From an uncultured Bacteroidales bacterium (GTDB taxonomy: Bacteria > Bacteroidota > Bacteroidia > Bacteroidales > UBA11471), in NCBI GenBank assembly GCA_947593515.1, contig CANQDQ010000001.1, positions 186,001 through 250,000 on the forward strand: a stretch of DNA of 64,000 nucleotides, given 5' to 3'. The notes under the pieces were generated by a model. That model saw nothing but the letters and a program-made list of their open reading frames with translations, made no database searches and had not been told where the DNA came from. This document shows, piece by piece, positions 7,077-41,345 of this stretch (its first letter is position 1; the number at the start of each line of letters is the position of its first letter). A program made the position numbers and the translations under genes.

Positions 7077-8139
7077 CCTGCACTGGACACTGGGCGAAGG
7101 GCTGCGGGCATTAGGACACGACGTCGTGGTGGTATCGGGCGGAAGCGGATTCATGAACAACCGGCGCAATATTTCGCTGGTGCGCGGCGACGGACTTCGC
7201 GGCGCCATACGCTACGTATTCGACGTGGCTCGACTTCTCCCCTCGTTTCGCGGATATGACATCGTACAGATACACAATCCCGAATTTTTACATTTACGCC
7301 CCGGTAAGAACCGTGTCATATACAACTACCTGCGGCGGCACAATCGAAAAATATTCCTTGATGCTCTCGGCACGGACTATTATTATGTAAAAGCCTGCCA
7401 AGAAGGGCTATACCGTTATTCCGACTTCTTCGTCGGCAATCAATTGCGCGACTATCCCCATTGCGGGCAAATCGTCGAGGCATGGAACGACCATCCATTG
7501 AAAGACCAATGCCAATATGTTGCCGAGACCTGCAACGGCATCATCGCCTGCCTGTACGAATATTACATCGCCTACGAAAAAGAATTCAAAGAAAAACTCG
7601 CTTACATTCCCATACCCATACAGGTCGATCGCTACACGGTGCGCCCGATGAACGACACCCGCGAAAAAGTGCGCTTCTTTCTCGGCATACAACTCCACCG
7701 CAGCCGCCTGAAAGGAACAGACGTATATAAGGAAGTGTTGCAGGAGCTGCATGCGCGCTATCCGAAAGAATGCGAAATAAAAGAGGTGGTATCGGTACCG
7801 CTGGACGAATACCTGCGCCTCATGCGCTCGTCCGACGTCATTCTCGACCAGCTCTACTCCTACACGCCGGCTACCAACGCCCTGCAAGCCATGGCACAAG
7901 GTCTGGCTGCCGTAAGCGGAGGCGAGCCCGAATTTTACGACTTCATCGGCGAGAAAACGCTGCGTCCCATTATCAATGCCCGGCCCGATGCCGAAAGCGT
8001 ATATCGCACGCTGGAAGAGGTGATACTGAAACGGGAAGAGCTGCCGCAACGATGCGCCGACAGCCGCACTTTCGTGGAGAAACATCATAACTACACCGAC
8101 GTGGCGCAGCAATATCTCGATTTCTGGGAGAAACACTAA
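7045..8139 (+). CDS. GT4-like glycosyltransferase
   Basis: A 364-residue protein with a GT-B outline: MKILLLGEASNLHWTLGEGL at the N-terminus, DIVQIHNPEFLHLRP (a position where GT4 enzymes have DVVHxH), and a C-terminal half with YSYTPATNALQAMAQGL and GGEPEFYDFIG, the E-x7-E-type donor region. Conservation to well-known GT4 families is weak, so the sugar is unknown. The start inside the upstream gene gives a 32-bp overlap. Its stop codon overlaps the stop of the convergent flippase gene by 3 bp, leaving no terminator between them. Confidence 0.75.
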   Translation: MKILLLGEASNLHWTLGEGLRALGHDVVVVSGGSGFMNNRRNISLVRGDGLRGAIRYVFDVARLLPSFRGYDIVQIHNPEFLHLRPGKNRVIYNYLRRHNRKIFLDALGTDYYYVKACQEGLYRYSDFFVGNQLRDYPHCGQIVEAWNDHPLKDQCQYVAETCNGIIACLYEYYIAYEKEFKEKLAYIPIPIQVDRYTVRPMNDTREKVRFFLGIQLHRSRLKGTDVYKEVLQELHARYPKECEIKEVVSVPLDEYLRLMRSSDVILDQLYSYTPATNALQAMAQGLAAVSGGEPEFYDFIGEKTLRPIINARPDAESVYRTLEEVILKREELPQRCADSRTFVEKHHNYTDVAQQYLDFWEKH

Positions 8140-20489: not shown

Positions 20490-21695
20490 ATGACATCTAT
20501 CAAATTAAAATTCAGACCGCACATCGACGGCAGCAAGGAGGGTTCACTCTATTTCCAAATCATTCACGAACGCACCGTCAAACAGGTCAAAACCGACTTT
20601 CGCATTTACGAAAGCGAATGGCAGGAGGAAAATATCGTCAAAACCTCGCCCGTATCGACTGCCCGCAGCAAAACGCTGAAAGAGATTCGCGACAAAACCG
20701 CTTGGGAGCAGCAGATGCTGGAGCAAATCGCCATGCTCTTGGAAAAGGCGAACAAGCCCTACGTCGTCGATGAGATTATCCGGCGCTACAAAGAATCCGT
20801 GCAAGACAACACCTCCGTGTTCAATTATATACAACGGCAGGCGGAACGGCAGCGAAAATTGAATCGCGTGCGCACGGGCGAAACTTATTTACAGACCTTG
20901 CGCAGTTTCATGAAATTCCGCAAATACACCGATTTGTCTTTCGATAGGCTCGACGCCGACGTGGTAGAACAATACGAGAGTTATATGCGCGCCAACTGCC
21001 TGAGCCGCAATACGACCTCTTTTTATATGCGGATTCTGCGCTGCATCTACAACCGAGCGGTCGAAGAGGGACTGGCAGCGCAGAGCGACCCGTTCCGACG
21101 GGTTTACACCGGTGTCGATAAAACAGCCAAACGCGCCGTAACATTGCGGGAAATCAAGCGCATCAAAGAGTTGGACTTGACGGAAATGCCCGCCCTCGAC
21201 TACGCCCGCGACCTGTTTCTGTTTTCATTCTATATGCGAGGAATGTCGTTCATCGACATCGCCTACCTGCGCAAAAAAGATCTCGCAAACGGCTACATCA
21301 CGTATATCCGCAAAAAGACGGGACAGCAGCTCACGATTCGCTGGGAAAAGCCGATGCAGGAAATCGTGGCGAAATATCCGCTGAATCCGACGCTCTACCT
21401 GCTGCCGGTCATCACAAGACAGGACGGAACGGAACGCACCCAGTATCTGAACAAAATTTTATATGTCAATCGGAAACTGAAAGAGATTGCCCGCATGGCA
21501 AAAATTCCGATTCCGCTAAGTATGTATGTCGCGCGCCATTCGTGGGCGAGCATCGCGCAGGCAAAAAACGTGCCGTTGAGTGTCATCAGCGAGGGTATGG
21601 GGCACGACAACGAAGAGACGACACGCATCTATCTTTCCGCCATTCACTCCTACCGAATCGACGATGCCAACAACAAAATTCTAAAAGAATTGTGA
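20490..21695 (+). CDS. Tyrosine recombinase (site-specific integrase/invertase)
   Basis: A 401-residue phage-integrase-family enzyme of the Bacteroidales type. An N-terminal Arm/SAM-like domain (to about residue 110) is followed by a core-binding domain and the catalytic domain: first Arg in FSFYMRGMSFIDIAYLR, the second Arg/His in YVARHSWASIAQAKN (the usual first His of HxxR is Tyr), and the nucleophile Tyr in GHDNEETTRIYLSAI. Enzymes of this size act on mobile elements or on small invertible promoters. It lies directly upstream of paired recombination-like sites and the starch operon, with no other mobile-element genes, which favours a DNA-inversion role. Confidence 0.9.
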   Translation: MTSIKLKFRPHIDGSKEGSLYFQIIHERTVKQVKTDFRIYESEWQEENIVKTSPVSTARSKTLKEIRDKTAWEQQMLEQIAMLLEKANKPYVVDEIIRRYKESVQDNTSVFNYIQRQAERQRKLNRVRTGETYLQTLRSFMKFRKYTDLSFDRLDADVVEQYESYMRANCLSRNTTSFYMRILRCIYNRAVEEGLAAQSDPFRRVYTGVDKTAKRAVTLREIKRIKELDLTEMPALDYARDLFLFSFYMRGMSFIDIAYLRKKDLANGYITYIRKKTGQQLTIRWEKPMQEIVAKYPLNPTLYLLPVITRQDGTERTQYLNKILYVNRKLKEIARMAKIPIPLSMYVARHSWASIAQAKNVPLSVISEGMGHDNEETTRIYLSAIHSYRIDDANNKILKEL

Positions 21696-21725
21696 GATTT
21701 TTTTTGTTTGGGGAATTTGTACTAA

Positions 21726-21738
21726 CTCTTATCAAGAG
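21726..21738. repeat. Candidate recombination site, left (IRL)
   Basis: CTCTTATCAAGAG: 5-bp arms around a 3-bp asymmetric centre. It is the exact reverse complement of the site at 21908-21920. It sits inside a longer imperfect hairpin (21711-21750) that may also end the recombinase transcript. Confidence 0.55.
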
Positions 21739-21885
21739 ATAGTCATTCCCTTATAAATTATTAGGGATTAGGGGGTTGGTTTTTACGAAAAGGAAATATT
21801 CCAAACAGAATTTCGAGCAAACAGAAAAAAATCGCGATTTTTTTAATTTTTTTTGCGCTTATATGCTTGCAATTTATTTTTTTTA

Positions 21886-21893
21886 TATCTTTG
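21886..21893 (+). promoter_or_regulatory. -7 element of the starch operon, on the candidate invertible segment
   Basis: TATCTTTG matches TAnnTTTG and points at the MFS gene. The nearest TTG (21867-21869) is 16 bp away, shorter than the usual 19-21, so this promoter may be weak or activator-assisted. No TAnnTTTG is present on the other strand of the 21739-21907 segment. Confidence 0.6.
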
Positions 21894-21907
21894 TAGCGTT
21901 GTACTAA

Positions 21908-21920
21908 CTCTTGATAAGAG
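21908..21920. repeat. Candidate recombination site, right (IRR)
   Basis: CTCTTGATAAGAG, exact reverse complement of 21726-21738. Transcription from the promoter just upstream would start near 21898, so this site would lie at the very 5' end of the starch mRNA and could fold as a hairpin. Confidence 0.55.
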
Positions 21921-22042
21921 AAAAACAAGAAGATAAAGCCATGAAAAGCAATCCGAAACAGCTCCCATAAACAGGACTGCATCGGGAAACGATAACGGGT
22001 CATCACGACTTTGCTAATACCATAAAACAGAATTGTAAAAAA

Positions 22043-23353
22043 ATGAAAAAACCGAAGCTATCGTTCTGGCAGGTTTGGAATCTCAGTTTCGGATTCCTCG
22101 GAGTCCAAATAGGCTATTCGCTGCAAAACTCCAACACCTCGACCATTTTCGAATCGTTGGGCGCCGACCTGCACCAATTGAGTTACTTTTGGTTGGCAGC
22201 TCCCATTGCCGGATTAGTGGTGCAACCTATCGTAGGGTTGTTTTCCGACGGCACGTGGACGCGTTTCGGGCGCCGCATTCCCTTCATTCTGGGCGGCGCC
22301 ATTATTTCGGCTCTCGCCCTTGCACTGATGCCCAATGCTCCTATTCTGCTGGCATTTGCGCCGTTAGTTATGGGGGCATTTATTTTGCTTTTCATGGACT
22401 TGTCGTTCAACGTAACGATGCAGCCCTTCCGTGCGCTCGTTTCCGATATGCTCGACGACAGCCAGAAAACGCAGGGATATGTGGTGCAAACCCTCCTTAT
22501 CAATTTAGGAGCCGTAGTGGGCGCGGTGCTGCCGCTGATTCTGACTCGCTGCGGCGTTTCCGACACGGCGCCCGCAGGCGGCGTGGCACCCCATATCGCC
22601 TACTCCTATTATATAGGCGGTGCCGTACTGCTGCTCACCGTGCTGGTTACGGCATTCCGCACGAAGGAGTATCCGCCCGAAGAGTTCGCCCGCTATGACG
22701 AGCGTCCCTCCGAAGAACCTGCCGCAGAAAAGAGTTCTTTCCTCGAAACACTGCGCCATACGCCCAAAGTGATGCTGCAATTGGGCGTGGTGCAATTCTT
22801 TTCGTGGGCAGCGCTTTTCCTGATGTGGACCTACTTGAAACCCGCCATTACAGGCGTCGTGCTCTCGCACGAAACCGGTATGCCGCTCACCGACGGACAG
22901 ACGCAGACGTGGGTCGGCGTGCTGAACGGCACCTACCCCATTCCCGCCTGCATCGTATCGCTCTTTCTCGGCATCATTGCCGCACGATGGGGCAACAAGC
23001 TCGTCTATGCCCTCTGCCTGCTCTGCGGCGCTGCCGGCTTCGCCGGTCTTACCTGCATTGCCGACCAATACGCGCTGATGATTCCCATGATAGGCATCGG
23101 CATTGCGTGGGCAGGCATTCTGGCAATGCCCTACTCGATACTCTCGCGGGCGCTCGATGCCCGCCGCACCGGCGTCTATATGGGCATCTTCAACTTCACC
23201 ATCACCATACCGCAGATAGTCGTCGGGCTTACCGGCGGCGTCATCGTCAAGCACCTTTTCGGCGGGCATCCGATGTCGATGCTCATGCTTGCAGCCGTGT
23301 TCATGCTGCTGGCAGCGCTGTCGGTGGCGTTCGTAAAAGAACGCGCGAAGTGA
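22043..23353 (+). CDS. MFS sugar permease (maltose/sucrose-type, SLC45-like)
   Basis: A 436-residue inner-membrane protein with about 12 hydrophobic segments. LSFWQVWNLSFGFLGVQIGY with SLQNSNTSTIFESLGAD, and the loop motif GLFSDGTWTRFGRRIPF, are typical of the maltose/sucrose porters found at the head of Bacteroidetes starch loci. It should import maltose or short maltooligosaccharides released in the periplasm. It is the first gene after the candidate invertible promoter; susC follows after 84 bp. Confidence 0.88.
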   Translation: MKKPKLSFWQVWNLSFGFLGVQIGYSLQNSNTSTIFESLGADLHQLSYFWLAAPIAGLVVQPIVGLFSDGTWTRFGRRIPFILGGAIISALALALMPNAPILLAFAPLVMGAFILLFMDLSFNVTMQPFRALVSDMLDDSQKTQGYVVQTLLINLGAVVGAVLPLILTRCGVSDTAPAGGVAPHIAYSYYIGGAVLLLTVLVTAFRTKEYPPEEFARYDERPSEEPAAEKSSFLETLRHTPKVMLQLGVVQFFSWAALFLMWTYLKPAITGVVLSHETGMPLTDGQTQTWVGVLNGTYPIPACIVSLFLGIIAARWGNKLVYALCLLCGAAGFAGLTCIADQYALMIPMIGIGIAWAGILAMPYSILSRALDARRTGVYMGIFNFTITIPQIVVGLTGGVIVKHLFGGHPMSMLMLAAVFMLLAALSVAFVKERAK

Positions 23354-23437: not shown

Positions 23438-26400
23438 ATGAAGAAAATCCTTGCTATTTGTCTGGGGTTATGTGTTCTAACAGCCATCACCCCTCCTGCG
23501 GCGGCACAGAACGGTAAGATTACCGTCCAAGGTGTCGTAGCAGATGCCGCCGGGCAGCCGATTATCGGCGCCACGGTAGTGGAAAAAGGGACGACAAACG
23601 GTGTATCGACCGATTTCGACGGAAAATACACGTTGAACGTCGCCGACGGCAATGCCATGATTTCGGTCAGCTACATCGGCTACAAGACCGTCGAGCTGCC
23701 CGCCTCATCGCCGGCATTGCGCAAACTCACCCTTGAAGAAGACCTTATGTCGCTCGACGAGGTCGTAGTCATCGGTTACGGTTCGGTCAAGAAAAACGAT
23801 ATGACCGGTTCCGTCGTGGCTATCAAGGCGGAGGGTCTCAACCGCGGTGCCGTAAACTCGCCCGACCAACTGCTTATCGGTAAAGTGCCGGGTCTGTTGA
23901 TAACCCCCGCATCGGGTGAGCCCGGTACCGGCGCTACGATACGTATCCGCGGCGCTGCGTCGCTGAATGCCAAGAACGACCCGTTGATCGTCATCGACGG
24001 TATGCCTGTTACGGGCGACGGCGGTGCCGGCATGGGCAACCCCCTTGCATCGGTCAATCCCAACGACATCGAATCTTATACGGTGTTGAAAGACGCTTCG
24101 GCAACAGCCATCTACGGTTCGCGCGCTTCCAACGGTGTGATTATCATCACCACGAAGAAAGGCAGGGGCAACCGTCCGCAGGTAAGCTACGAGTCGAGCT
24201 ACTCGGTAAAGACCAACGCCAACCGCATCGACGTGATGTCGGGTCCGGAATACATCGACTACTTGGAGAATACCTACATACCGACCCTCGCGGCTTCTGA
24301 TGCCGACAAGGTGCGCAGCCTGCTGGGCTACAACGGTGAGATGTACGATACCGACTGGCAGGATTTGGTCTATCGCACGGCTTTCACGACCGACCAAAAC
24401 GTTTCCGTCTACGGAAATACGAAGCACGATAAAATGCCCTATCGCGTGAGTGTCGGTGTCAATTACGATCAGGGTACGGTGCGTGGCGGCGACAACACGC
24501 GCGTGAATGTGGGTGCAAACCTGTCGCCGAAACTTTTTGACGACCACCTGACGGTGAATCTGAATCTCAAAGGGCTTTACAACAAATCGAACTGGACGAA
24601 CAACGCCGTAGGTACGGCTCTCTCCTACGATCCGACCAAGCCCTCCCACATGATTTACAATGCGGACGGCACGGAATCGACGCCGACAAATCCCAACTAC
24701 AAGTGGTTCACCGGTTACATCAACTGGACGGACAACAACGCGGGCGTCAACCCGCTCTCGTCGCTCTACGACTGGGTGAACTACGGACACACGCTGCGCT
24801 CCATCGGAAGCATACAGCTGGACTACCGCATTCACGGTCTGGAAGATTTGCGGGCTAACCTCAATCTCGGCTACGATATTTCCGAGACCCAAAACACCAC
24901 CTACAACGAACTGGGTTCTATCGGCAACTTCCGCAACGGCGACAACGACGTCTATACCGAATCGAAAAACTACAACGCCAATACGCTGTTGGAGTTCTAC
25001 CTCAACTACAATAAGGAGTTCGGAATCCATCACCTCGACGTCATGGCAGGTTACTCGTGGCAGCGCAACTACTACCGCTGGCAGAGCATCGGCTACAACA
25101 ACAACGACCGCTCGCAATACAGCGCCGGCAGCTCGACCGAAGAATCGCGCTGGCGCCACCCGCGCGAATACTACCTGCTGTCGTTCTTCGGACGCGTAAA
25201 CTACACGATTGCCTCGAAGTACCTCTTTACGGTTACTGTCCGCGAAGACGCCACATCGCGCTTCTCCGAAGACAACCGCTGGGGCTTCTTCCCCTCCGCC
25301 GCTTTCGCATGGAATATCGCAGAAGAGGAGTTCCTCCGCGACTCGCACGCCGTATCGGCAATGAAGCTGCGTTTGGGTTGGGGACGCACCGGTCAGCAGG
25401 ATATAGGCGACAACTACTATCCCCACATTCCCATTTACAATTATGCCAACCCGGGCAACGGACAATACCTCCCGGGTGTAGCGGGCACACTGGCTCCCGG
25501 AGCTTTCAACCGCAACATCAAGTGGGAAACCACCGAAACCTACAACGCCGGTATCGACTTCGGCTTCATCAACAGCCGCATCAACGGTACGTTGGACTAT
25601 TACTTCCGCAGAACCTACGACCTGTTGAGCGAGGTCGATGCTCCTACGGGGTCGAACTTCACCAACCGCATCATGTCGAACATCGGAACGATGCACAACC
25701 AAGGTGTCGAACTGTCGTTGAACTTCGTTCCCGTAGAGCGTGAGAACATGCGCTGGGTCATCAACCTCAACGGCACGTGGCAACAGACGGAAATTACCGA
25801 CCTGAACGACAATACGGTGCACGTAGGAGCCCAGCTGTCGGGTACGGGAGGCAACTACTCGTCGGTACACCGCGAGGGATTCGAGCCTTACACTTTCTAC
25901 CTCTACCAGCAGGCATACGACGCTGAGGGCAAACCTATCCAAAACACCTTCATCGACCGCAGCGGCGACGGCAGAATAACCGAAGACGACCTCTACATTA
26001 CGGGCAAGAGCGCCACTCCCGATTTCTTCTACGGCATCGGCACGCAGTTCACCTACAAAAACTGGGACTTCGGTTTCAACGGACACGGCTCGGTAGGCAA
26101 CTACGCCATCAACCAGCTGGCTATCGGCAACTCGACGACCTACATGGGTTCGCTTGCCTATAACAACCTGACCAATTTCAACGAATATCACCTCCGCACG
26201 GGCTTCACCGGTCAGAACACGACCCAGCAGTCTTACTCGGATATGTTCATTGAAAACGCTTCCTTCTTCCGTATGGACGATATAAACGTGGGCTACACGT
26301 TCCGCAACATACGCAAGAGCAAGGTTTCCTTGCGTTTGCAGGCATCGGTACAGAACGCATTCGTCATCACGAAATACTCGGGTCTCGACCCCGAAGGCAT

Positions 26401-26476
26401 GAGCGCCGACGGCGTTTACAACACGCTGATTCCGCGTCCGCGCCTCTACACCCTGCGTTTGAATCTCAACTTCTAA
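23438..26476 (+). CDS. susC: SusC/RagA TonB-dependent outer-membrane transporter
   Basis: A 1012-residue outer-membrane porin. Signal peptide to about residue 24 (PPAAAQ), a carboxypeptidase-D regulatory-like domain (ITVQGVVADAAGQPIIGATV to about 105), the plug (GEPGTGATIRIRGAASLNAK, PLIVIDGMP, SATAIYGSRASNGVIIITTK) and a 22-strand barrel ending in aromatic LRLNLNF. It takes up maltooligosaccharides together with the SusD lid. susD follows 17 bp later, so they are co-expressed. No N-terminal STN domain, so no anti-sigma signalling is expected. Confidence 0.97.
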   Translation: MKKILAICLGLCVLTAITPPAAAQNGKITVQGVVADAAGQPIIGATVVEKGTTNGVSTDFDGKYTLNVADGNAMISVSYIGYKTVELPASSPALRKLTLEEDLMSLDEVVVIGYGSVKKNDMTGSVVAIKAEGLNRGAVNSPDQLLIGKVPGLLITPASGEPGTGATIRIRGAASLNAKNDPLIVIDGMPVTGDGGAGMGNPLASVNPNDIESYTVLKDASATAIYGSRASNGVIIITTKKGRGNRPQVSYESSYSVKTNANRIDVMSGPEYIDYLENTYIPTLAASDADKVRSLLGYNGEMYDTDWQDLVYRTAFTTDQNVSVYGNTKHDKMPYRVSVGVNYDQGTVRGGDNTRVNVGANLSPKLFDDHLTVNLNLKGLYNKSNWTNNAVGTALSYDPTKPSHMIYNADGTESTPTNPNYKWFTGYINWTDNNAGVNPLSSLYDWVNYGHTLRSIGSIQLDYRIHGLEDLRANLNLGYDISETQNTTYNELGSIGNFRNGDNDVYTESKNYNANTLLEFYLNYNKEFGIHHLDVMAGYSWQRNYYRWQSIGYNNNDRSQYSAGSSTEESRWRHPREYYLLSFFGRVNYTIASKYLFTVTVREDATSRFSEDNRWGFFPSAAFAWNIAEEEFLRDSHAVSAMKLRLGWGRTGQQDIGDNYYPHIPIYNYANPGNGQYLPGVAGTLAPGAFNRNIKWETTETYNAGIDFGFINSRINGTLDYYFRRTYDLLSEVDAPTGSNFTNRIMSNIGTMHNQGVELSLNFVPVERENMRWVINLNGTWQQTEITDLNDNTVHVGAQLSGTGGNYSSVHREGFEPYTFYLYQQAYDAEGKPIQNTFIDRSGDGRITEDDLYITGKSATPDFFYGIGTQFTYKNWDFGFNGHGSVGNYAINQLAIGNSTTYMGSLAYNNLTNFNEYHLRTGFTGQNTTQQSYSDMFIENASFFRMDDINVGYTFRNIRKSKVSLRLQASVQNAFVITKYSGLDPEGMSADGVYNTLIPRPRLYTLRLNLNF

Positions 26477-26493: not shown

Positions 26494-28170
26494 ATGAAAA
26501 AAATATTTTTATACGGATTTTCGGCAGTTTTCGCTATGTGTGCCGTTTCGTGCGTGGGCGACTTGGATACCATGCCGCTCGACAAGACGGTATCTTCGAG
26601 CGATAAGGCTTTTGCCGCACCCGAATCGTATCTTCAGTACGTAAATTATGCGTACAGCTATTTTTCTCTGGTGTCGCAATCCGATCCGGGTTCTTCCGAT
26701 ATTGCCGTGAGCGACGCCGGACAGTCGGAGTTCACCCGCCAGTATATGGTGCTGAACGAAATGTCCACCGACGCCTTGAAGTGCGTCTGGGGCGACTCCT
26801 ACGTTCCCGAAATCGGCTATGACCGCTGGAACAGCAGCAACACCGCCGTTGTGGCAGTCTATCTGCGCAGTCTGAAAGCCATAGCCATCTGCAACCAGTT
26901 CCTCGACGAATCCGTTTCGGGCGACGCTGCAGTCAGCGAGCGCGGACACGCTGCGGAAATCGAAAACGTCCACACCTACCGTGCCGAATTGCGGCTGCTG
27001 CGGGCAGTGTATTACAGCTTCCTGCTCGACCTGTTCGGCAATCCGCCGCTGATTCTGCCGGAGCACATCGGTTCGTCCGACTTCCCGAAACAACTCTCCA
27101 CCGACTTCAAAGAGGGACGGCGTATGCTGTTCGAGTGGATAGAAAGCGAACTCAACGCGTCGATCGACGACCCGGCGCTGCCGGAACGTCCCGTTGCCTA
27201 TCCGCGTCTGTCGAAATATGCGGCAAAGGCAGTGCTGGCACGTATGTACCTCAACGCCGAAGTCTATACCGGCACCGCCCGTTGGCAAGATGCCATGAAT
27301 GCTGCCAAAGATGTCATCGAGAAAGGCGGCTACACACTCTGTCCGGTATATCAAAACTTGTTCCTGCAAGACAACTCCACCAACGGCGCCCAGAATGAAT
27401 TTATCATCGCCGCCAGCTACGACGACCGTCAAACTCAGAGCTGGGGCGGTACGACCCACCTCGTCTATTCGGTCGTACACACCGACACGCGTATGGTAAT
27501 TTCCCAAGCGCTGGGCTATGAAACCGACATTTACAAAAACCAATGGAACGGCTACCACGTCTCCGAAGCCTTTATCGAGGAACACTTCGGGCTGACCAAC
27601 GTCGAGACCGGTCCCTACCTCAAACACGACGGCGACAAACGCGCGCTTCTTTACAAGTTTGAAGCCCCCTTCACGAACGAAGTTACCGACATTACTTCGG
27701 GGTGGACGTGCCTGAAATGGCTGCCCATTACGAGCGACGGTACGCCGGTTTTGGTTAATGACGACATCGAACAGTCGTCGGCAGACTTCCCCTTCTACCG
27801 GCTTGCCGAGATGTACCTGATTTACGCCGAGGCAGAAGCTCGCCTGAGCGGCGGTACGCTTGCCAACGGAAGCACGGGCTACGGATACCTGCAAACCCTT
27901 CGCAATCGTGCCGGCGTGTCTATCGGCGCCGCCGAGACCATCGATTTGGAGTGGATTTTGAAAGAGCGCGTGCGCGAACTCATGTGGGAGGGACACCGCC
28001 GCACCGACCTGATTCGTTACGGCTACTTCACCACGTCGTCCTATCCGTGGCCCTACAAAGCCGGCGTACCCGACGGACGCGCCTCGATAGATTCCTATCG
28101 CACGGTCTATCCCATCATCAGCACCGATTTGGTGGCAAACCCCAATCTGGTACAGAATCCGGGTTATTGA
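26494..28170 (+). CDS. susD: SusD/RagB starch-binding lipoprotein
   Basis: A 558-residue surface lipoprotein with lipobox AVSC (Cys20). The helical TPR scaffold is recognised in RAELRLLRAVYYSFLLDLFG with NPPLIL, and the C-terminal domain in FYRLAEMYLIYAEAEARLSG, LQTLRNRAGVS and ILKERVRELMWEGHRRTDLI. It binds glucan and closes over SusC as a lid. Substrate assignment to starch comes from the SusE/SusF and GH13 neighbours. Confidence 0.96.
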   Translation: MKKIFLYGFSAVFAMCAVSCVGDLDTMPLDKTVSSSDKAFAAPESYLQYVNYAYSYFSLVSQSDPGSSDIAVSDAGQSEFTRQYMVLNEMSTDALKCVWGDSYVPEIGYDRWNSSNTAVVAVYLRSLKAIAICNQFLDESVSGDAAVSERGHAAEIENVHTYRAELRLLRAVYYSFLLDLFGNPPLILPEHIGSSDFPKQLSTDFKEGRRMLFEWIESELNASIDDPALPERPVAYPRLSKYAAKAVLARMYLNAEVYTGTARWQDAMNAAKDVIEKGGYTLCPVYQNLFLQDNSTNGAQNEFIIAASYDDRQTQSWGGTTHLVYSVVHTDTRMVISQALGYETDIYKNQWNGYHVSEAFIEEHFGLTNVETGPYLKHDGDKRALLYKFEAPFTNEVTDITSGWTCLKWLPITSDGTPVLVNDDIEQSSADFPFYRLAEMYLIYAEAEARLSGGTLANGSTGYGYLQTLRNRAGVSIGAAETIDLEWILKERVRELMWEGHRRTDLIRYGYFTTSSYPWPYKAGVPDGRASIDSYRTVYPIISTDLVANPNLVQNPGY

Positions 28171-28197: not shown

Positions 28198-29292
28198 ATG
28201 AAACAGATAAAATATTGGATAATGATGTGGGCTGTCGGTCTCTGCCTCACAGGCTGCTCTACCGACGTGGAGCAAGCGCAGCTCGCCGACCCCGCCACCT
28301 ACACGGCTCCGACACTCGACCCCGTTGCCGACATCATGGTGAATGCCAACAACGACAAGGAGACGGTCGTTTTCACCTGCTCGCCCGTGTCTTTCGGACA
28401 ACCGGTCGAGATAAACTACCGTGTGATGCTCACGCGGACAGAAAGCGGTTATGACACCGTTCAACTGGCAACCTCGCAATCGCCGAACATCAGCGTCATG
28501 AAAACCGACATCAACGGCGCAGCCATCAACCTGCTCGGCGTAACGGCAAACGAATCCGCAGAACTCTGCGCATACGTTGTCGCATACGTCGGCAATACGA
28601 CGTTGTGCACCCCGAAGTCGAACTGCGTGGATTTCACCATTCAGACCTATAAAGCGCCTTTGCGCAGCTACTACCTCTGCGGATACTTCAACGGTTGGAC
28701 TCCCGCATCGGCTCCGACTATCTGGGAGACCGGCGGCGGCACGAACATCTACGAAGGTATGTATATGCTCACCTCCGACGAAGAGAACACGCCGGGCGAT
28801 GCAGGCTTCAAAGTGTTGGTACAACAGGCTTGGGGCGGCGACATGGGCTATGAGGCCTTCCCGACACGCGGTAGTGCATTCCGCTCGTCGTCCGACGGCA
28901 ACCTCGTACTCGACCCGGGTATCTGGCAGCTCTCTGTCAATATAGGAACCATGGCTATCGACGCCAAGTCCGTTTCGCAAGTCGATATTATGGGCGACTG
29001 GGACGGCTGGGCTGCACCTGTGGTAATGAACTACGACCCCGCAACGAACGTATGGAAGAGCGCAACGCCCGTAACGGCAGCCGAATTCAAGGTGCGTTTG
29101 AACAACGCGTGGGACATCAATTACGGCACCGGCACCAAACCTGCCGAGAATATGGAAGGCATCGACGAAACGGCGGCTTACGAACTCGAACAGGGTGGCG
29201 GCAACATTACCACCATGCCGGCAGGCGCGCATTACGTCGTGCTCCACGCCGACCGTACACCGTACGTTATCGCATACGAACCTGCACAATAA
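28198..29292 (+). CDS. susE: SusE-like starch-binding lipoprotein
   Basis: A 364-residue lipoprotein (lipobox LTGC, Cys20). The N-terminal SusE Ig-like domain (about 25-150: VVFTCSPVSFGQPVEINYRV) is followed by two carbohydrate-binding modules beginning near SYYLCGYFNGWTPASAPT and VSQVDIMGDWDGWAAPV. In B. thetaiotaomicron SusE holds starch at the cell surface without hydrolysing it; the same role is inferred. Position after susD supports the call. Confidence 0.9.
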   Translation: MKQIKYWIMMWAVGLCLTGCSTDVEQAQLADPATYTAPTLDPVADIMVNANNDKETVVFTCSPVSFGQPVEINYRVMLTRTESGYDTVQLATSQSPNISVMKTDINGAAINLLGVTANESAELCAYVVAYVGNTTLCTPKSNCVDFTIQTYKAPLRSYYLCGYFNGWTPASAPTIWETGGGTNIYEGMYMLTSDEENTPGDAGFKVLVQQAWGGDMGYEAFPTRGSAFRSSSDGNLVLDPGIWQLSVNIGTMAIDAKSVSQVDIMGDWDGWAAPVVMNYDPATNVWKSATPVTAAEFKVRLNNAWDINYGTGTKPAENMEGIDETAAYELEQGGGNITTMPAGAHYVVLHADRTPYVIAYEPAQ

Positions 29293-29367: not shown

Positions 29368-31395
29368 ATGAAACTATTCAAATATTTAACGCTGTCGGCA
29401 GTGGCAATGATGACCGTTGCCTGTGAGAACGAGCCCCTCGATCTCTTTTCGACCGACCCGGTGGCTCCCGCGCTCGCCGAACACAACGACATTCTTCTGA
29501 CGGAAGACACGCCCAACGAGGACGTAACTTTCGCATGGAGCGCCGCCCGCAATATGGCAGGCGAGATAGACTATACCCTTTACGCAGCAGCTGCCGACGA
29601 CACGATTTCGCTCGGCTCGACAACGGACACCCACATAACGATGCCCAAAACAGAGCTGCGTACGAATCTGCTGAAACTTACGCTTTCGCCGAACGACAAT
29701 TCGAGTATCGCATTCTTCGTAGAAGCCGCCGACGGCACGACAACGCTCCGGTCGGCATCGCTCACCATTACGTGCTATATCTACGGCAATGCCGTACCTG
29801 CCGTATTGTCGGTATCCGAAGCATACAAGGATTCCTTAGTACTCAAAGTCGATGAAATGGATCAGCAAATCGACCTGCTGACGTGGTCGCCCGCCCGACT
29901 TGGGTTCAAGGAAAACATCGTTTATTCGCTCTCCGCCAAAGTGGAGGAAGGTGAAGAATATTTCTTCGCCGAAGGGCTGACCGCCTGCACTTACGGCAAA
30001 ACGGTAGACGAGTGGAACGAAATATTCGCGGCTGCCGGCTGCACGGAAAATATCGCAACCGATGTGCTATTGACCGTATATGCCGCGACGGAAGGCTCGG
30101 AAACGAAAGGCATTCCGTCTGACGGCGTAACGATAAACGTAACGACCTACCTCGCCACCTATCCCGACCAGATGTATCTGCCGGGCGACTATCAAGGCTG
30201 GTCTCCTGCCACAGCACCCACCATCGCCCAAAGTTCGGCACAGAAAGGCTATTACGAGGGATTTGTCGATATGACCGCGTCAGATGGAGGATTTAAGTTT
30301 TCACCCGTACCTGATTGGCAGGGCGATTTCGGCAGCAACAACGAAATCGTTGCTGAAGACGAGAACGGTAATACGGTGGTAACGGCTACGGTCGGCGACG
30401 GCGACAACATCACGGTACCGACAGGCTTCTATCTGATTCAACTCGACAAGAGACGCAATAACTTGACGATGGTGAAAGTTACCTCGATGAGCCTCATCGG
30501 CGACGCCACTCCGGGCGGCTGGGACAATGATACCCCCATGACCTATGACGCCGAAAGCCACACCTACTCGGCTACCCTCACTCTCACACAAGGCAATAGC
30601 TACAAGTTCCGGTTGAACAACAATTGGAGCTACGCTATCGGCAACAACGGTATGTTCGAGGGCGGCGACAACTATGCTTTCGACAAAGAAACCGGCGAAT
30701 ACAAAGTAATACTCGATGTAAGCCAACACCCCTATTCGGTAAACGTCCTCAGCACGAAATACCCCGAAAATATGTATATTCCGGGAAAACACAATGAATG
30801 GGGATTTACAACTTACCTGCCGGGCAACGGCGAAGGTCGATACGAAGGATTCGTAAATCTGGTAAATTCCGAAGGAGAAACCTGCGAGTGGAAATTCTGC
30901 GAAGGAGACAGTTGGGACTACGCTAATTATGCCTCTGAGGATTTCACATACGATCCCGCAACGGGCAAAGGCAAGGGCTCTTACAAAGAAAGCGATAAAA
31001 ACATTACGGTACCGAACGGCTGCTACTACATTATCGTAGATATGACCAACGGCTCGTTTACGGTAGAACGTGTCGCCAAAGTAGGACTCGTCGGTCCTGC
31101 CACTCCTGCCGGATGGACTCCGGAGAATAGTGTCGAGATGACATTCGACCCCACCACCGGAATGTGGACGACCACGCTCGAACTGAAAGCCGACCAATTC
31201 AAGGTTTGCATCAACAACAATTGGACCATAAACCGCGGAGCGCCTTCGGAAAATGAACCTTATATGCTGACCGACGGCAAAACCGAAACAGTCGTACAAG
31301 AGGGCAAAAACTTCGCAGTAGCAGAAGCCGGCAACTACAAGGTAACAGCTGATCTGCTGCATATTCCCAACACTATCAAGGTGGAGAAACAATAA
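29368..31395 (+). CDS. susF: SusF-like starch-binding lipoprotein with four CBM modules
   Basis: A 675-residue lipoprotein (lipobox TVAC, Cys19). Two SusE/Ig-like N-terminal domains are followed by four starch-binding-like modules starting near residues 266 (QMYLPGDYQGWSPATAP), 370 (MSLIGDATPGGWDNDTPM), 465 (NMYIPGKHNEWGF) and 568 (VGLVGPATPAGWTPENSV). Modules 1 and 3 resemble each other, as do 2 and 4, pointing to duplication of a two-module unit. B. thetaiotaomicron SusF has three modules, so this one is enlarged. Role: surface starch retention. Confidence 0.88.
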   Translation: MKLFKYLTLSAVAMMTVACENEPLDLFSTDPVAPALAEHNDILLTEDTPNEDVTFAWSAARNMAGEIDYTLYAAAADDTISLGSTTDTHITMPKTELRTNLLKLTLSPNDNSSIAFFVEAADGTTTLRSASLTITCYIYGNAVPAVLSVSEAYKDSLVLKVDEMDQQIDLLTWSPARLGFKENIVYSLSAKVEEGEEYFFAEGLTACTYGKTVDEWNEIFAAAGCTENIATDVLLTVYAATEGSETKGIPSDGVTINVTTYLATYPDQMYLPGDYQGWSPATAPTIAQSSAQKGYYEGFVDMTASDGGFKFSPVPDWQGDFGSNNEIVAEDENGNTVVTATVGDGDNITVPTGFYLIQLDKRRNNLTMVKVTSMSLIGDATPGGWDNDTPMTYDAESHTYSATLTLTQGNSYKFRLNNNWSYAIGNNGMFEGGDNYAFDKETGEYKVILDVSQHPYSVNVLSTKYPENMYIPGKHNEWGFTTYLPGNGEGRYEGFVNLVNSEGETCEWKFCEGDSWDYANYASEDFTYDPATGKGKGSYKESDKNITVPNGCYYIIVDMTNGSFTVERVAKVGLVGPATPAGWTPENSVEMTFDPTTGMWTTTLELKADQFKVCINNNWTINRGAPSENEPYMLTDGKTETVVQEGKNFAVAEAGNYKVTADLLHIPNTIKVEKQ

Positions 31396-31508: not shown

Positions 31509-33587
31509 GTGAAACAACTCTTTTATCTCGCCTTTGCCCTGCTGCTTGCGGCAGTGGCTCCCGCCTGCGGCGACGACAATCTCGAAGCCGTATCGCCTCC
31601 CCCCGAAGTGCCCGACCAACCGGAACCGGAAAATCCGACTACCCCCGATATTTCCGTCGCCCCTGCGCCCGATGCGTGGGACGGCGTGAAACGGGCTGAC
31701 GTATCGTACCAACTGCTGATTTACTCTTTTGCCGATTCCGACGGCGACGGCACGGGCGACTTTCAAGGCATACGCTCCAAACTCGACTATTTGGACAGTT
31801 TGGGCGTTTCCGCCATCTGGCTCTCGCCGGCACACCCCGCCATGTCGTATCACGGGTACGACGTACTCGACTACGAAGCCCTGAACGAGGATTACGGCAC
31901 CGAAGCCGATTTCAAACAACTGATAGACGATGCCCACGCACACGGCATCAAAATCTATATGGACTGGGTCATCAACCACACGGGCAAAAACCACCCGTGG
32001 TTCCGCTCGGCGCTGACCGACCCCGAAAGCCCGTACAAAGATTATTACATCTTATCCGACAATCCCCGAGCCGATATTGCCGCAGGGCTGATTCCGATGA
32101 TCGCCACCGAAGGGGCGAACGGCTACGACGCCGGACAGTGGTTTTCGGCAGTAACTTCGGACGAAAACGTGCATCGGCTGAAATTCACCCTGTCGTGGTC
32201 GGCAACGCCGACCCTCACCGTCGAAGAGGTCGAAACCGTCGAGAATACGGGAACACGCAACAGCGGCAAATACCTCTACTACGGCGAAGGAAATTGCGAG
32301 GAGTTCTACACGCAAGGCAACAACGTTTACACGCTGTCGCTCGAATTCGAATCGTCGTGGGGCTGCCTCGTGCGCACCGCCACCGGCGACGACTGGGGTA
32401 CGGGCAAAAAATACGGCGCCGCCTCTTCTTCTGCGACCTTGCAATACGGCACTCCTCTGACGCTGAAAGCAAACACGGGGTCGTTCGATCCGGCAGACAT
32501 TCAACTGCCTTATATGCGTTCGACGATGTACCACTCGCATTTCTGGACGGACTGGTTTGCCGATTTGAATTACGGAGCCGCCGACCAATGTGCGGAATCT
32601 CCGGCTTTCAAGACTATCTGCAAAGCGGCAGAAAAGTGGATAGACATGGGTATCGACGGTCTGCGGCTCGACGGCGCCAAACATATCTACCACAATGCCT
32701 CGTCGTCGGAAAATCCGACTTTCTGGAACACTTTCTATACGACACTGAACGACTACTTCCATGCCAAAGGACATACGGAAAACATCTATATGGTGGGCGA
32801 AGTATTCGACGACTATGCGGCAGCGAAGCCTTATTATCGCGGATTGCCGGCGCTATTCGAGTTTGCTTTTTGGTATCGCCTCAAAGATGCGCTGAACAAT
32901 GGGTCGGGAAATTATTTTGCAAAAAATATTTCCGACTACCGCGAAGGCTACGCCGCCATTCGCGCCGACTACATCGCCGCCACGAAACTGACCAATCACG
33001 ACGAATCGCGCGCACGGACAGATCTCGGCGGCTCGCTCGACAAAGCGAAACAGGCTGCCGCCGTGCTGCTGACCGCCAACGGGTCGCCCTACATCTATTA
33101 CGGCGAGGAGTTGGGATATGTGGGCAACAAAGAGGGCGGCGACGAATATGTGCGCAACCCGATGAAGTGGGGCGACGACGCCACGACAAAAGGCATCGCG
33201 CCCGACAAACTCGACGCGGGTATGGCGAATGTGCCCGACGTCATGGAGCAGGTAAGCGACTCGGCGTCGATTCTGAATGTCTATCGCACATTCAGCCGGC
33301 TGCGCAACACCTACCCCGCCTTAGCTTCCGGCAAAATGGAGGTGCACCCCGTTTACAACAGCGAAAACGCCTCCTACAAAAGTATCGCCGCATGGTACAT
33401 GAGTACGGAAGAGCAGCGAATGCTCGTCGTACACAACTTCTCCTCCCTCAACGCCAACGTTCCATTGAGCGAAGATATAGACAAGACGGTCGGCAAGCTC
33501 GGCAAGGTAACTGCCACGACTGCGGCAGACGGGAAAATTTTGCTGCAAATGGGAAGCCGGTCGTCGATAGTTTTTCTGTTGAAATAA
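31509..33587 (+). CDS. susG: SusG-type surface alpha-amylase (GH13) with inserted CBM58-like module
   Basis: A 692-residue lipoprotein (lipobox APAC, Cys20) with a Pro-rich linker (about 29-55). The GH13 barrel shows YQLLIYSFADSDGDGTGDFQ, MDWVINHTGKNHPWF, nucleophile GLRLDGAKH (about 387), acid/base GEVFDD (about 431) and TNHDESR (about 498). An extra beta-rich block at about 216-335 interrupts the B domain exactly where SusG carries CBM58. It should hydrolyse starch at the cell surface to fragments for SusCD. Confidence 0.92.
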   Translation: MKQLFYLAFALLLAAVAPACGDDNLEAVSPPPEVPDQPEPENPTTPDISVAPAPDAWDGVKRADVSYQLLIYSFADSDGDGTGDFQGIRSKLDYLDSLGVSAIWLSPAHPAMSYHGYDVLDYEALNEDYGTEADFKQLIDDAHAHGIKIYMDWVINHTGKNHPWFRSALTDPESPYKDYYILSDNPRADIAAGLIPMIATEGANGYDAGQWFSAVTSDENVHRLKFTLSWSATPTLTVEEVETVENTGTRNSGKYLYYGEGNCEEFYTQGNNVYTLSLEFESSWGCLVRTATGDDWGTGKKYGAASSSATLQYGTPLTLKANTGSFDPADIQLPYMRSTMYHSHFWTDWFADLNYGAADQCAESPAFKTICKAAEKWIDMGIDGLRLDGAKHIYHNASSSENPTFWNTFYTTLNDYFHAKGHTENIYMVGEVFDDYAAAKPYYRGLPALFEFAFWYRLKDALNNGSGNYFAKNISDYREGYAAIRADYIAATKLTNHDESRARTDLGGSLDKAKQAAAVLLTANGSPYIYYGEELGYVGNKEGGDEYVRNPMKWGDDATTKGIAPDKLDAGMANVPDVMEQVSDSASILNVYRTFSRLRNTYPALASGKMEVHPVYNSENASYKSIAAWYMSTEEQRMLVVHNFSSLNANVPLSEDIDKTVGKLGKVTATTAADGKILLQMGSRSSIVFLLK

Positions 33588-33603
33588 CATGAATGCAAAG
33601 AAT

Positions 33604-35700
33604 ATGAAAAAACTTTGGCTTTTACTCCTATTCGCAGGCTTGGCATCGTGCCGGCAGGCGATTTTCACCGACGTTCCCGCCGACGGGAACAGGCAGCCGG
33701 TGTACCCGCTCCGGTGGAACGGGGTGCAACAGCACGTGTTCCTGACCGATTACTATCCACAGTGGACGGGCGCCGATTCCGTTACGACCGACCAAGCAGG
33801 CGTTTCGCTCGCCGCGACGGCTCCCGATTGGAGCGAATTCGACCTGACGGGCGACGGAGCTGCAGCCGCAGGAACACTCTCCGTATGGCGCAACGGCTCC
33901 TGCGTTTCCATCGTAACGCTGTCGGGCGCATACCCTGCCGCAAACCGTCTTTTCTCGACCGGCACGGCAGTTCACACGGTATCGGTCGCCGCGACAGCCG
34001 CTCCGCAGCAAATCGTGGCGTTATGGCAAAACTGCCGCCTGCCCGAAAGCTCCATTACACGCCATGAAAAGGGTTTCAGCGTAGAGATTCCGAAAGACGC
34101 CGATGCCGTCGGACGCTCGTTTCTGCGCATCTATGCCGCAAACGCAACGGGCTGCTTCAACGACCTGCTGATTCCGCTTGCCGGCGGCGAACCCGTTGCC
34201 TCCGCCGAACTCCTCGACCGGCACGACACGCAGGCGCAGGTACTCTATTCCTTGATGATAGACCGCTTTGCCAACGGCAATCCGGCAAACGACCGTCCGC
34301 TCAACCGACCCGACGTCCTGCCCAAAGTCGATTACTACGGCGGCGACATCAAGGGTATTACGGAGAAAATCCGCGACGGATTTTTCAACAACTTGGGTAT
34401 CACGACGATATGGATTTCTCCTATCACGCAGAATCCCTACGATGCGTGGGGGCTTAATCAAGACCCCGTAACCCGCTTCTCGGGTTATCACGGATATTGG
34501 CCGCTCTATGTAACGAGTATCGACACCCGCTTCGGCACCGATGCCGAACTGCGCGAAATGCTCGCCACCGCACACGAACACGGTCTGAATGTGATTCTGG
34601 ACTACGTCGCCAACCACCTGCACATCGAATCGCCCATACTGAAACAACACCCCGACTGGACGACGCCGATGTATCTGCCCGACGGACGCCGCAACTTGGA
34701 GTTGTGGGACGAACAGCGGCTGACGACGTGGTTCGACGTACATATACCGACACTCGACCTCGAACGCATGGACATCTGCGACGTCATGACCGATTCCGCC
34801 CTCTACTGGGTGGGTGAGTACGATTTCGACGGATTCCGCCACGACGCCTGCAAACACATTCCCGAAAACTACTGGCGCATGTTGTGCCACAAAATGAAAA
34901 GCCGCTTCCCCGAACGGCAGTTGTGGCAAATCGGCGAAACATACGGCTCGCCCGAATTGATAGGCTCCTACGTAAAGACCGGCATGATCGACGCGCAGTT
35001 CGACTTCAACTTCTACCACACCGCCATCGACGTGCTGTCGCAAAATGACGACATGGCGAAAATCGCCAACGTCATCGACGAATCGGCAGCGTGGTACGGC
35101 GCCCACCATACGATGGGCAACATCACGGGCAACCACGACAAACCGCGCTTCATATCGATTGCCGGCGGCGCCGTCTCTCCCGCAGAAGACACCAAACTCG
35201 CCGGCTGGAAACGCGACATCGGCGTGGGCGATCCGGTAGGCTACCGGAAACTCTCCCTGCTCGAAGCGCTGATTTGCACGATTCCGGGCGTTCCTTGCTT
35301 CTATCAAGGCGACGAATACGGCGTTCCGGGCGCCAACGACCCCGACAACCGCCGCATGATGGCGTTCGACGGATATTCGCCTGAGGAACAGGAGCAACTC
35401 CATCGTGCCGAAAAACTCATCGCCCTGCGGCGCAGCACGCTGCCGCTGCTCTACGGCGACATGACGACGCTGCAACTCGACCACGACGTCTGGGCTTTTG
35501 CCCGCATCTATCTGGGAGAGTGCGCCGTAACGATTATCAACAATGGCGCCGAACCCCGCACCGTCGAACTGACCCTGCCCGCCTGCGCTGCCGGCACCGA
35601 ACAGCTGCAACCCCATTTCGGCAGCGAAATGCAACGGAATGCCGACGGTACGCTCTCGGTAACAGTCGCCGGCAACGGATTTGAAATATTGACAAAATAA
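33604..35700 (+). CDS. GH13 alpha-amylase-family lipoprotein
   Basis: A 698-residue lipoprotein (lipobox LASC, Cys16). A beta-rich N-terminal region of about 210 residues, probably a carbohydrate-binding or Ig-like domain, precedes the GH13 barrel: LYSLMIDRFANGNPAND, ILDYVANHLH, nucleophile DGFRHDACKH, acid/base IGETYG, and TGNHDKPRF. The pattern resembles cyclomaltodextrinase/amylase-like enzymes active on maltooligosaccharides or pullulan. The ATG at 33604 is chosen for its clean lipoprotein signal; 33589 is possible and leaves 1 bp after susG. Confidence 0.88.
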   Translation: MKKLWLLLLFAGLASCRQAIFTDVPADGNRQPVYPLRWNGVQQHVFLTDYYPQWTGADSVTTDQAGVSLAATAPDWSEFDLTGDGAAAAGTLSVWRNGSCVSIVTLSGAYPAANRLFSTGTAVHTVSVAATAAPQQIVALWQNCRLPESSITRHEKGFSVEIPKDADAVGRSFLRIYAANATGCFNDLLIPLAGGEPVASAELLDRHDTQAQVLYSLMIDRFANGNPANDRPLNRPDVLPKVDYYGGDIKGITEKIRDGFFNNLGITTIWISPITQNPYDAWGLNQDPVTRFSGYHGYWPLYVTSIDTRFGTDAELREMLATAHEHGLNVILDYVANHLHIESPILKQHPDWTTPMYLPDGRRNLELWDEQRLTTWFDVHIPTLDLERMDICDVMTDSALYWVGEYDFDGFRHDACKHIPENYWRMLCHKMKSRFPERQLWQIGETYGSPELIGSYVKTGMIDAQFDFNFYHTAIDVLSQNDDMAKIANVIDESAAWYGAHHTMGNITGNHDKPRFISIAGGAVSPAEDTKLAGWKRDIGVGDPVGYRKLSLLEALICTIPGVPCFYQGDEYGVPGANDPDNRRMMAFDGYSPEEQEQLHRAEKLIALRRSTLPLLYGDMTTLQLDHDVWAFARIYLGECAVTIINNGAEPRTVELTLPACAAGTEQLQPHFGSEMQRNADGTLSVTVAGNGFEILTK

Positions 35701-35735
35701 AACCTTAATCGACTAATCAATAAATAAAACACGAT

Positions 35736-37064
35736 ATGAAAAAGATTCTGATTTCGCTACTCGGCATCGCGATGCTGTGGAGCTGCGGACACTCGACCGC
35801 CCCCCAACCCCACCCCGAATGGACTTACAATACGGTGGTCTATGAAATGAATGTGCGCCAACTGACGCCAGAGAGTTCGTTCCGTGAAGCAGAGGCTTAC
35901 CTGCCCGCGTTGAAAGAGCTCGGCATCGACATCGTTTGGGTGATGCCCATTTATCCTATCGGCGTCAAGGAGCGCAAAGGCACGCTCGGCTCCTACTATG
36001 CCATTTCAGACTACTGCGCCGTGAATCCGGAATTCGGAACGATGGAGGATTTCGATTCATTCCTCGCCACCGCCCACCGGCTCGGACTGAAAGTCGTTCT
36101 CGACTGGGTGGCAAATCACACTTCGCCCGATGCGCTATGGATTACGGAAAAACCGGCTGACTGGTATGTACGCGATGAAAACGGTGCCACCATCATACAA
36201 TACGACTGGACGGACATCGCCAAACTCAACTACGACCAACCCGATATGCGGCAGGCAATGCTCGATGCCATGAAGTTCTGGGTAAACAAGGGCGTCGACG
36301 GATTCCGCTGCGACATGGCGTGCGAAGTGCCTATCGACTTCTGGCGCACGGCTTTCGCGGAACTGCGCAAAATCAATCCCGACCTCTACCTGCTGGCAGA
36401 GGGTGAACGCACCGACCTGCATGAAAAGGCTTTCGACGCTTCTTATGCGTGGAATTTACATCACCTGCTCAACGACATCGCACAAGGCAAGAAGGGGGCA
36501 GCCGACCTGAAAGCCTACATCGAAGACGATGCGGCAACCTATCCGCACGAAGCCTTCCGCCTGATGTTCACCTCGAATCACGATGAAAATTCGTGGGCAG
36601 GCACCGAATTTGCCCGCATGGGCGACGCCGCCCGCGCAATGGCGGTGCTGACATTCGTTCTGCCCAACGGACAGCCCCTCATCTATACGGGACAGGAATT
36701 CGGCTACGACCACTCTTTCGAGTTCTTCGAGAAAGACCCCATGCCGTCGCTCGAGCCCAACGATTACACCGATTTTTATAAACGCCTCTGCACCCTGCAC
36801 CACGACCATTCGGCTTTGGCATCGGGTGAAAAAGGCGGCGAAGCGGTCTTCGTCGAAGGATTGCCCGAATGCGTGTTCGCATTCACCCGCTCGACGAACG
36901 ACGATATGCTCTTCTGCGCTTTCAACCTGTCGGACTCGACGGTATCTTTCACCGTACCCGAAGCGGCTGCGGCTTGCTGTCCCGAATGGAATACGGGCGA
37001 CGAAGTAACCCTGTCGGCATGGGAATACACCATCGACGACCGCGACGGACATCAAAATCTTTGA
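35736..37064 (+). CDS. GH13 alpha-amylase-family lipoprotein (compact)
   Basis: A 442-residue lipoprotein (lipobox LWSC, Cys17) consisting of a minimal GH13 barrel and a short C-terminal beta domain. Motifs: VVYEMNVRQLTPESSF, LDWVANHTSPDALW, nucleophile DGFRCDMACEVP, acid/base LAEGER, and TSNHDENSW. The short loops and the MNVRQ-type opening match small Bacteroidetes amylases that trim maltooligosaccharides. Together with SusG and the gene before it this makes three lipid-anchored GH13 enzymes in the operon. Confidence 0.88.
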   Translation: MKKILISLLGIAMLWSCGHSTAPQPHPEWTYNTVVYEMNVRQLTPESSFREAEAYLPALKELGIDIVWVMPIYPIGVKERKGTLGSYYAISDYCAVNPEFGTMEDFDSFLATAHRLGLKVVLDWVANHTSPDALWITEKPADWYVRDENGATIIQYDWTDIAKLNYDQPDMRQAMLDAMKFWVNKGVDGFRCDMACEVPIDFWRTAFAELRKINPDLYLLAEGERTDLHEKAFDASYAWNLHHLLNDIAQGKKGAADLKAYIEDDAATYPHEAFRLMFTSNHDENSWAGTEFARMGDAARAMAVLTFVLPNGQPLIYTGQEFGYDHSFEFFEKDPMPSLEPNDYTDFYKRLCTLHHDHSALASGEKGGEAVFVEGLPECVFAFTRSTNDDMLFCAFNLSDSTVSFTVPEAAAACCPEWNTGDEVTLSAWEYTIDDRDGHQNL

Positions 37065-37087
37065 CTCTCATAACCCCTGCTGTATAG

Positions 37088-41312: not shown

Positions 41313-41345
41313 CAACGGGGCGGAAAAGTTTTTTCCGCCCCGTTG
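41313..41345. terminator. Terminator of the starch operon
   Basis: A 15-bp perfect stem (41313-41327 with 41331-41345, 3-base loop) followed on the plus strand by CTTTTGTTGTTTT. It lies between malQ and the convergent leucine-rich-repeat gene. Confidence 0.85.

Follow-up and report, generated by a model that had tools for sequence, protein, structure and literature searches.

Our analysis showed that a 169-bp segment lying between a tyrosine recombinase gene and a starch utilization (Sus) operon is very probably a reversible promoter switch, either functional or recently functional, as judged from its sequence and, most decisively, from comparison with homologous loci. The segment is part of the window, i.e. 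the whole stretch of 64,000 nucleotides from an uncultured Bacteroidales bacterium that was analysed. The elements of the putative switch are as follows.

20490-21695, + strand: tyrosine recombinase of 401 aa with Arm-DNA-bind_5, Phage_int_SAM_5 and Phage_integrase domains (Pfam, alignment and structure match).
21717-21748, + strand: left recombination site, consisting of half-site TTGTACTAACTCTT, spacer ATC and half-site AAGAGATAGTCATTC, with its core at 21726-21738 (sequence and homologues).
21739-21907, no strand assigned: putative invertible segment of 169 bp (bounded by the inverted cores; same architecture at homologous loci).
21867-21893, + strand: predicted Bacteroidales-type promoter facing the MFS-susC operon, with −7 box TATCTTTG (21886-21893) and a possible weak −33 box TTGC (21867-21870) (sequence and position in the family).
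21899-21925, + strand: right recombination site, consisting of half-site TTGTACTAACTCTT, spacer GAT and the weak outer half-site AAGAGAAAAA, with its core at 21908-21920 (sequence and homologues).

Direct reading of the sequence confirmed the inverted 13-bp pair that had been predicted to bound the segment: CTCTTATCAAGAG (21726-21738) and CTCTTGATAAGAG (21908-21920) are exact reverse complements with 169 bp between them, and their central triplets, ATC (21731-21733) in the left core and GAT (21913-21915) in the right core, are reverse complements as predicted. Around the cores the repeat is an imperfect one of 18 nt, 17 of which match (21726-21743/21903-21920). Its score is 15, a value reached by none of 350 dinucleotide shuffles of comparable downstream regions, and a score of 13 was attained by one of the 350. 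With up to one mismatch allowed, the 13-bp core has only two copies in the whole 2.26-Mb assembly, and this core search revealed no second pair of sites elsewhere in the genome. Elsewhere in the genome CTCTWNNNWAGAG occurs as single sites only, two of which adjoin recombinase paralogues on contig C11. These two paralogues (L064, G000:C11:75882-75894; L063, G000:C11:27120-27132) have a single CTCTNNNNNAGAG each, at most 20 bp after the gene; at one of the two loci the contig ends 72 bp beyond the site, and a partner site may be unassembled.

The original prediction also pointed to the same 9 bases before both sites. These bases (TTGTACTAA) are indeed present, but in the same (direct) orientation, which taken alone is an argument for direct repeats and not an independent sign of inversion. 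They are shared directly because TTGTACTAACTCTT serves as the outer half-site on the left and as the inner half-site on the right; the inner half-site on the left reads GAATGACTATCTCTT when reverse-complemented. The sharing thus likely reflects the half-site that each recombinase subunit would bind. Three of the four half-sites in the window match ACTA(A/T)CTCTT, and the outer-right one (AAGAGAAAAAC) is weak. The half-site GACTA(A/T)CTCTT is also present in close homologues.

The recombinase gene ends 30 bp before the left site, as had been noted (ORF: 20490-21695). The likely catalytic residues of its product (R250, K276, R349, H372, and Y381) are intact and were invariant in an alignment of ten recombinases. 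The solved structures that match it are XerA/XerC-like.

We then compared 80 homologous recombinase loci from Bacteroidales (L090-L169). An inverted pair scoring at least 15 was found within 500 bp 3′ of the recombinase gene in 59 of the 69 scorable loci, and in none of 350 shuffles. Homologues at unrelated loci do carry the sites, together with the same spacing and an internal promoter immediately 3′ of the gene, and this supports the predicted inversion by a tyrosine recombinase. Because the repeats were detected from seeds of matching 8-mers, spacers that match were favoured; this bias is removed by an independent search, in which CTCT(T/A)NNN(T/A)AGAG cores were located separately and their spacers compared afterwards. 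In all 43 loci with two unambiguous cores, the five central bases are reverse complements of each other (43/43), and in none are they direct repeats (0/43). A core-type site occurred in only 1 of 74 loci in the control stretch 5′ of the recombinase gene. There are 26 distinct spacers across the family, matched within every locus. This favours inversion, since strand exchange between inverted sites needs such a pattern and the other explanations considered do not. A two-site pattern with rigid flanks, which was over-specified, had no match across 60 relatives.

One of these other explanations is an integrated mobile element, whose integrase would be the recombinase and whose attachment-site remnants would be the two sites. 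The protein does have the arm-binding and core-binding domains of an integrase, but it is encoded outside the segment, and the spacing of the sites is mostly near 160-190 bp with a promoter inside, so that we regard this explanation as scarcely credible. Excision or attachment sites in the form of direct repeats are contradicted by the absence of direct spacers at the 43 loci.

Another is that the palindromes are operators of a sugar-responsive repressor or activator, possibly acting by looping, with no relation to the adjacent recombinase. In favour of this, both sites are pseudopalindromic on their own and can be read together as a direct repeat as well, and in relatives homologous MFS genes have LacI regulators beside them. 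However, the motif was found in 0 of 29 fetched MFS-homologue loci from other genomes, while recombinase homologues beside quite different genes do carry it. The spacers vary yet always match in inverted orientation, a matching that an operator would not need, and the only LacI protein of the genome adjoins hexuronate genes. The motif tracks the recombinase and not the operon, the window's own locus being the only MFS locus examined that has it. We thus rejected the operators, which appear very improbable, in favour of the promoter switch.

Evidence that the segments of this family do turn over was found in two pairs of loci. In each pair, L103/L115 and L138/L118, the recombinases are related and the flanks collinear, yet the segments align only when one of them is inverted. 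For L103/L115 the inner part matches at 102/150 as reverse complement and at 42/80 in the same orientation, and the left flank at 43/48. As these segments are reversed between collinear flanks, the recombinase family inverts DNA in nature. The proposed check of orientation in related genomes was thus positive between homologous loci, but the opposite orientation was not seen at the window locus itself. A contig break lies no more than 260 bp from the gene at nine loci on the 3′ side versus two on the 5′ side, an excess that fits mixed orientations disturbing the assembly. Identical to the left core of the window, CTCTTATCAAGAG directly adjoins the start codon of a gene that is probably of restriction type at L066 (G004:C3), the locus of a 51% homologue; no promoter segment lies between core and gene there, and the contig ends about 470 bp further on.

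The segment in the window carries a single TAnnTTTG element, facing the operon, and none was found on the other strand of the 169 bp, in agreement with the original prediction. The −7 box and the right core are separated by 14 bp; in other ON-oriented members of the family this distance is 11-15 bp. At most loci of the family, a TAnnTTTG box occupies a fixed position next to one repeat, inside that end of the segment. This promoter faces the recombinase (OFF) at 53 loci, many of them mutually related and not independent events, and the target (ON) at six, including the window; at two loci promoters face both ways and at seven none was recognised. Many of the OFF switches stand before restriction-modification or helicase genes. 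The earlier reading of the window as the ON state, itself predicted from sequence, fits the position and direction of the promoter. An ORF of nine codons (MKSNPKQLP, 21941-21970) in what is presumed to be the leader of the MFS gene could be due to chance.

The operon that the promoter faces comprises the following features.

22043-23353, + strand: MFS sugar transporter, first gene of the operon (Pfam MFS_1/MFS_2).
23438-26476, + strand: SusC-like TonB-dependent receptor (Pfam).
26494-28170, + strand: SusD (Pfam SusD_RagB).
28198-29292, + strand: SusE (Pfam SusE).
29368-31395, + strand: SusF/SusE-type starch-binding lipoprotein (Pfam SusF_SusE).
31509-33587, + strand: SusG alpha-amylase with CBM58 (Pfam Alpha-amylase, SusG_CBM58, SusG_C).
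33589-39013, + strand: three further GH13 enzymes (33589-35700, 35736-37064, and 37088-39013, the last of cyclomaltodextrinase type; Pfam).
39035-41260, + strand: GH77 4-alpha-glucanotransferase with CBM20, last gene of the operon (Pfam).
41313-41345, + strand: strong intrinsic terminator after the operon, 15 pairs (computed).

By Pfam the Sus operon is complete, with SusC, D, E, F, and G homologues and GH13 enzymes all present. Its genes are co-directional with intergenic gaps of at most 113 bp, and TAnnTTTG occurs in these gaps only before the last gene, gh77 (39017). Given the common direction, the short gaps and the 3′ terminator, one long operon transcript is plausible. A gene for a BspA-type LRR surface protein adjoins the operon (41371-43896), in a region that is rearranged and a point of contig breaks in relatives.

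According to the mechanism we propose, the recombinase would bind four half-sites (consensus GACTAWCTCTT) around the two sites, cut around the 3-nt spacer and invert the segment. In the present orientation, the TAnnTTTG promoter would start transcription at about 21899-21900 and drive the MFS-SusCDEFG-amylase-GH77 operon (ON). Once inverted, the promoter would instead direct transcription back at the 3′ end of the recombinase gene, and the operon would be deprived of its main promoter (OFF). For the window copy of the switch, we infer its activity, the start site and the ON/OFF effect. Given a working switch, ON/OFF control would likely extend over the whole 19-kb operon. No terminator was seen between the recombinase stop codon and the operon, and some expression in the OFF state is thus possible through upstream transcription passing the recombinase gene.

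The fate of this locus differs in a sister species (G005), which shows about 97% DNA identity across the right flank. In this genome (L074, G005:C7, near 7124-7204, minus strand) only the 3′ end of the recombinase gene survives. It is followed by half of the left site, TTGTACTAACTCT, and gh77 resumes immediately afterwards with its final 25 codons. All of the operon up to that point has been deleted, with the breakpoint inside the left site, and about 290 bp are missing from the recombinase gene through a second, internal deletion. Since the joint shares five bases (ACTCT) with both parents, the loss of the operon could be due to aberrant recombinase action or to a microhomology deletion. Members of the genus lack the operon.

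A further explanation is that the window holds a degenerate, locked switch, which once inverted the promoter and is now fixed ON in the lineage. In its favour, the sister species retains neither the operon nor most of the recombinase gene, a single orientation is available at the window locus, and the outer-right half-site is weak, with which inversion could be slow or lost. On the other hand, the recombinase ORF is intact with all likely catalytic residues kept, both cores are perfect with matched spacers, and the right outer half-sites vary in the closest homologues too. We consider a locked switch unlikely, and a reversible one remains our preferred reading.

Our analysis also strengthened the earlier suggestion of an alternative control in place of a nearby regulator. 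In relatives, a LacI-family regulator was found directly 5′ of the MFS transporter at at least six homologous MFS loci (four by Pfam, the others by homology). In G014, a histidine kinase and a LytTR response regulator lie between GH77 and the MFS-susC operon (L077:7442-9612), and this pair is a possible alternative starch regulator. Such MFS-adjacent LacI or two-component regulators are missing in the window, where the position of the regulator is occupied by the recombinase and the switch. The genome's only LacI protein, which lies between hexuronate genes (identities judged from translation), is about 30% identical to the MFS-linked LacI regulators; none of the MFS-linked type was found in the genome, and its best match to the G014 histidine kinase is weak. 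In B. thetaiotaomicron, sus is reportedly under the control of SusR and MalR (PMC12632263). We tentatively propose that in this lineage substrate-responsive control of the starch operon, whether by LacI, a two-component system or SusR, has given way entirely to a stochastic DNA switch. The population would then hedge between cells that degrade starch and cells that do not, whatever the sugar supply, and a deletion at the switch site like that in the sister species could remove the operon.

For Bacteroidota, starch use is the textbook example of induction by sugar. Phase variation of the starch system in this organism would mean that bet-hedging extends beyond surface display to core nutrition. 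An OFF state could be selected for because SusC-type receptors are immunogenic and may be targeted by phages. Our comparison of loci defines a compact recombinase-site family, with half-site GACTAWCTCTT and a free 3-nt spacer matched per locus, that may be used for predicting switches in assemblies and for designing orthogonal DNA switches.

The type of switch is well known, and its starch-operon cargo is unusual. Other targets of the family are restriction-modification enzymes, SNF2/PLD-type helicases, NusG-like (UpxY-type) capsule antiterminators, a flippase, BspA-type LRR proteins, and small lipoproteins. The cargo is called unusual because no protein matching the SusC, SusD or MFS proteins of the window operon was found at the remaining loci of the 80, within the fetched DNA. 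No report of a phase-variable classic starch sus operon was found in a literature search, whose coverage left out many subscription papers. Invertible promoters of gut Bacteroidales are reportedly treated in Jiang 2019. Metagenomes have revealed inverted regions in the vicinity of SusC/D genes and PULs (PMC10939037); the invertible promoters of gut Bacteroidales at such places resemble the present segment in having the promoter between inverted repeats, with ON and OFF populations. As cited in PMC4747536 and PMC12632263, the Tsr0667 SusC/SusD shufflon of B. fragilis has multiple sites and many loci (Nakayama-Imaohji 2009). In this account it is similar to the window in that DNA inversion by a tyrosine recombinase governs SusC/SusD-family genes, but it is a multi-site shufflon, whereas the window has a single local pair before one complete starch operon. 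Several sites recombining several susC/D genes, as in a shufflon, are not what we found, there being two site copies genome-wide at up to one mismatch. In anatomy, the switch in the window matches that of BF2766/Tsr19 of B. fragilis, which inverts a promoter immediately downstream of its own gene (IVp-I, EPS operon; PMC4747536). Both have a tyrosine recombinase and, downstream of its own gene, an invertible promoter controlling an operon; however, Tsr19 acts on exopolysaccharide genes and on a distant second promoter, whereas the switch in the window precedes a starch Sus operon and the genome has no second site pair.
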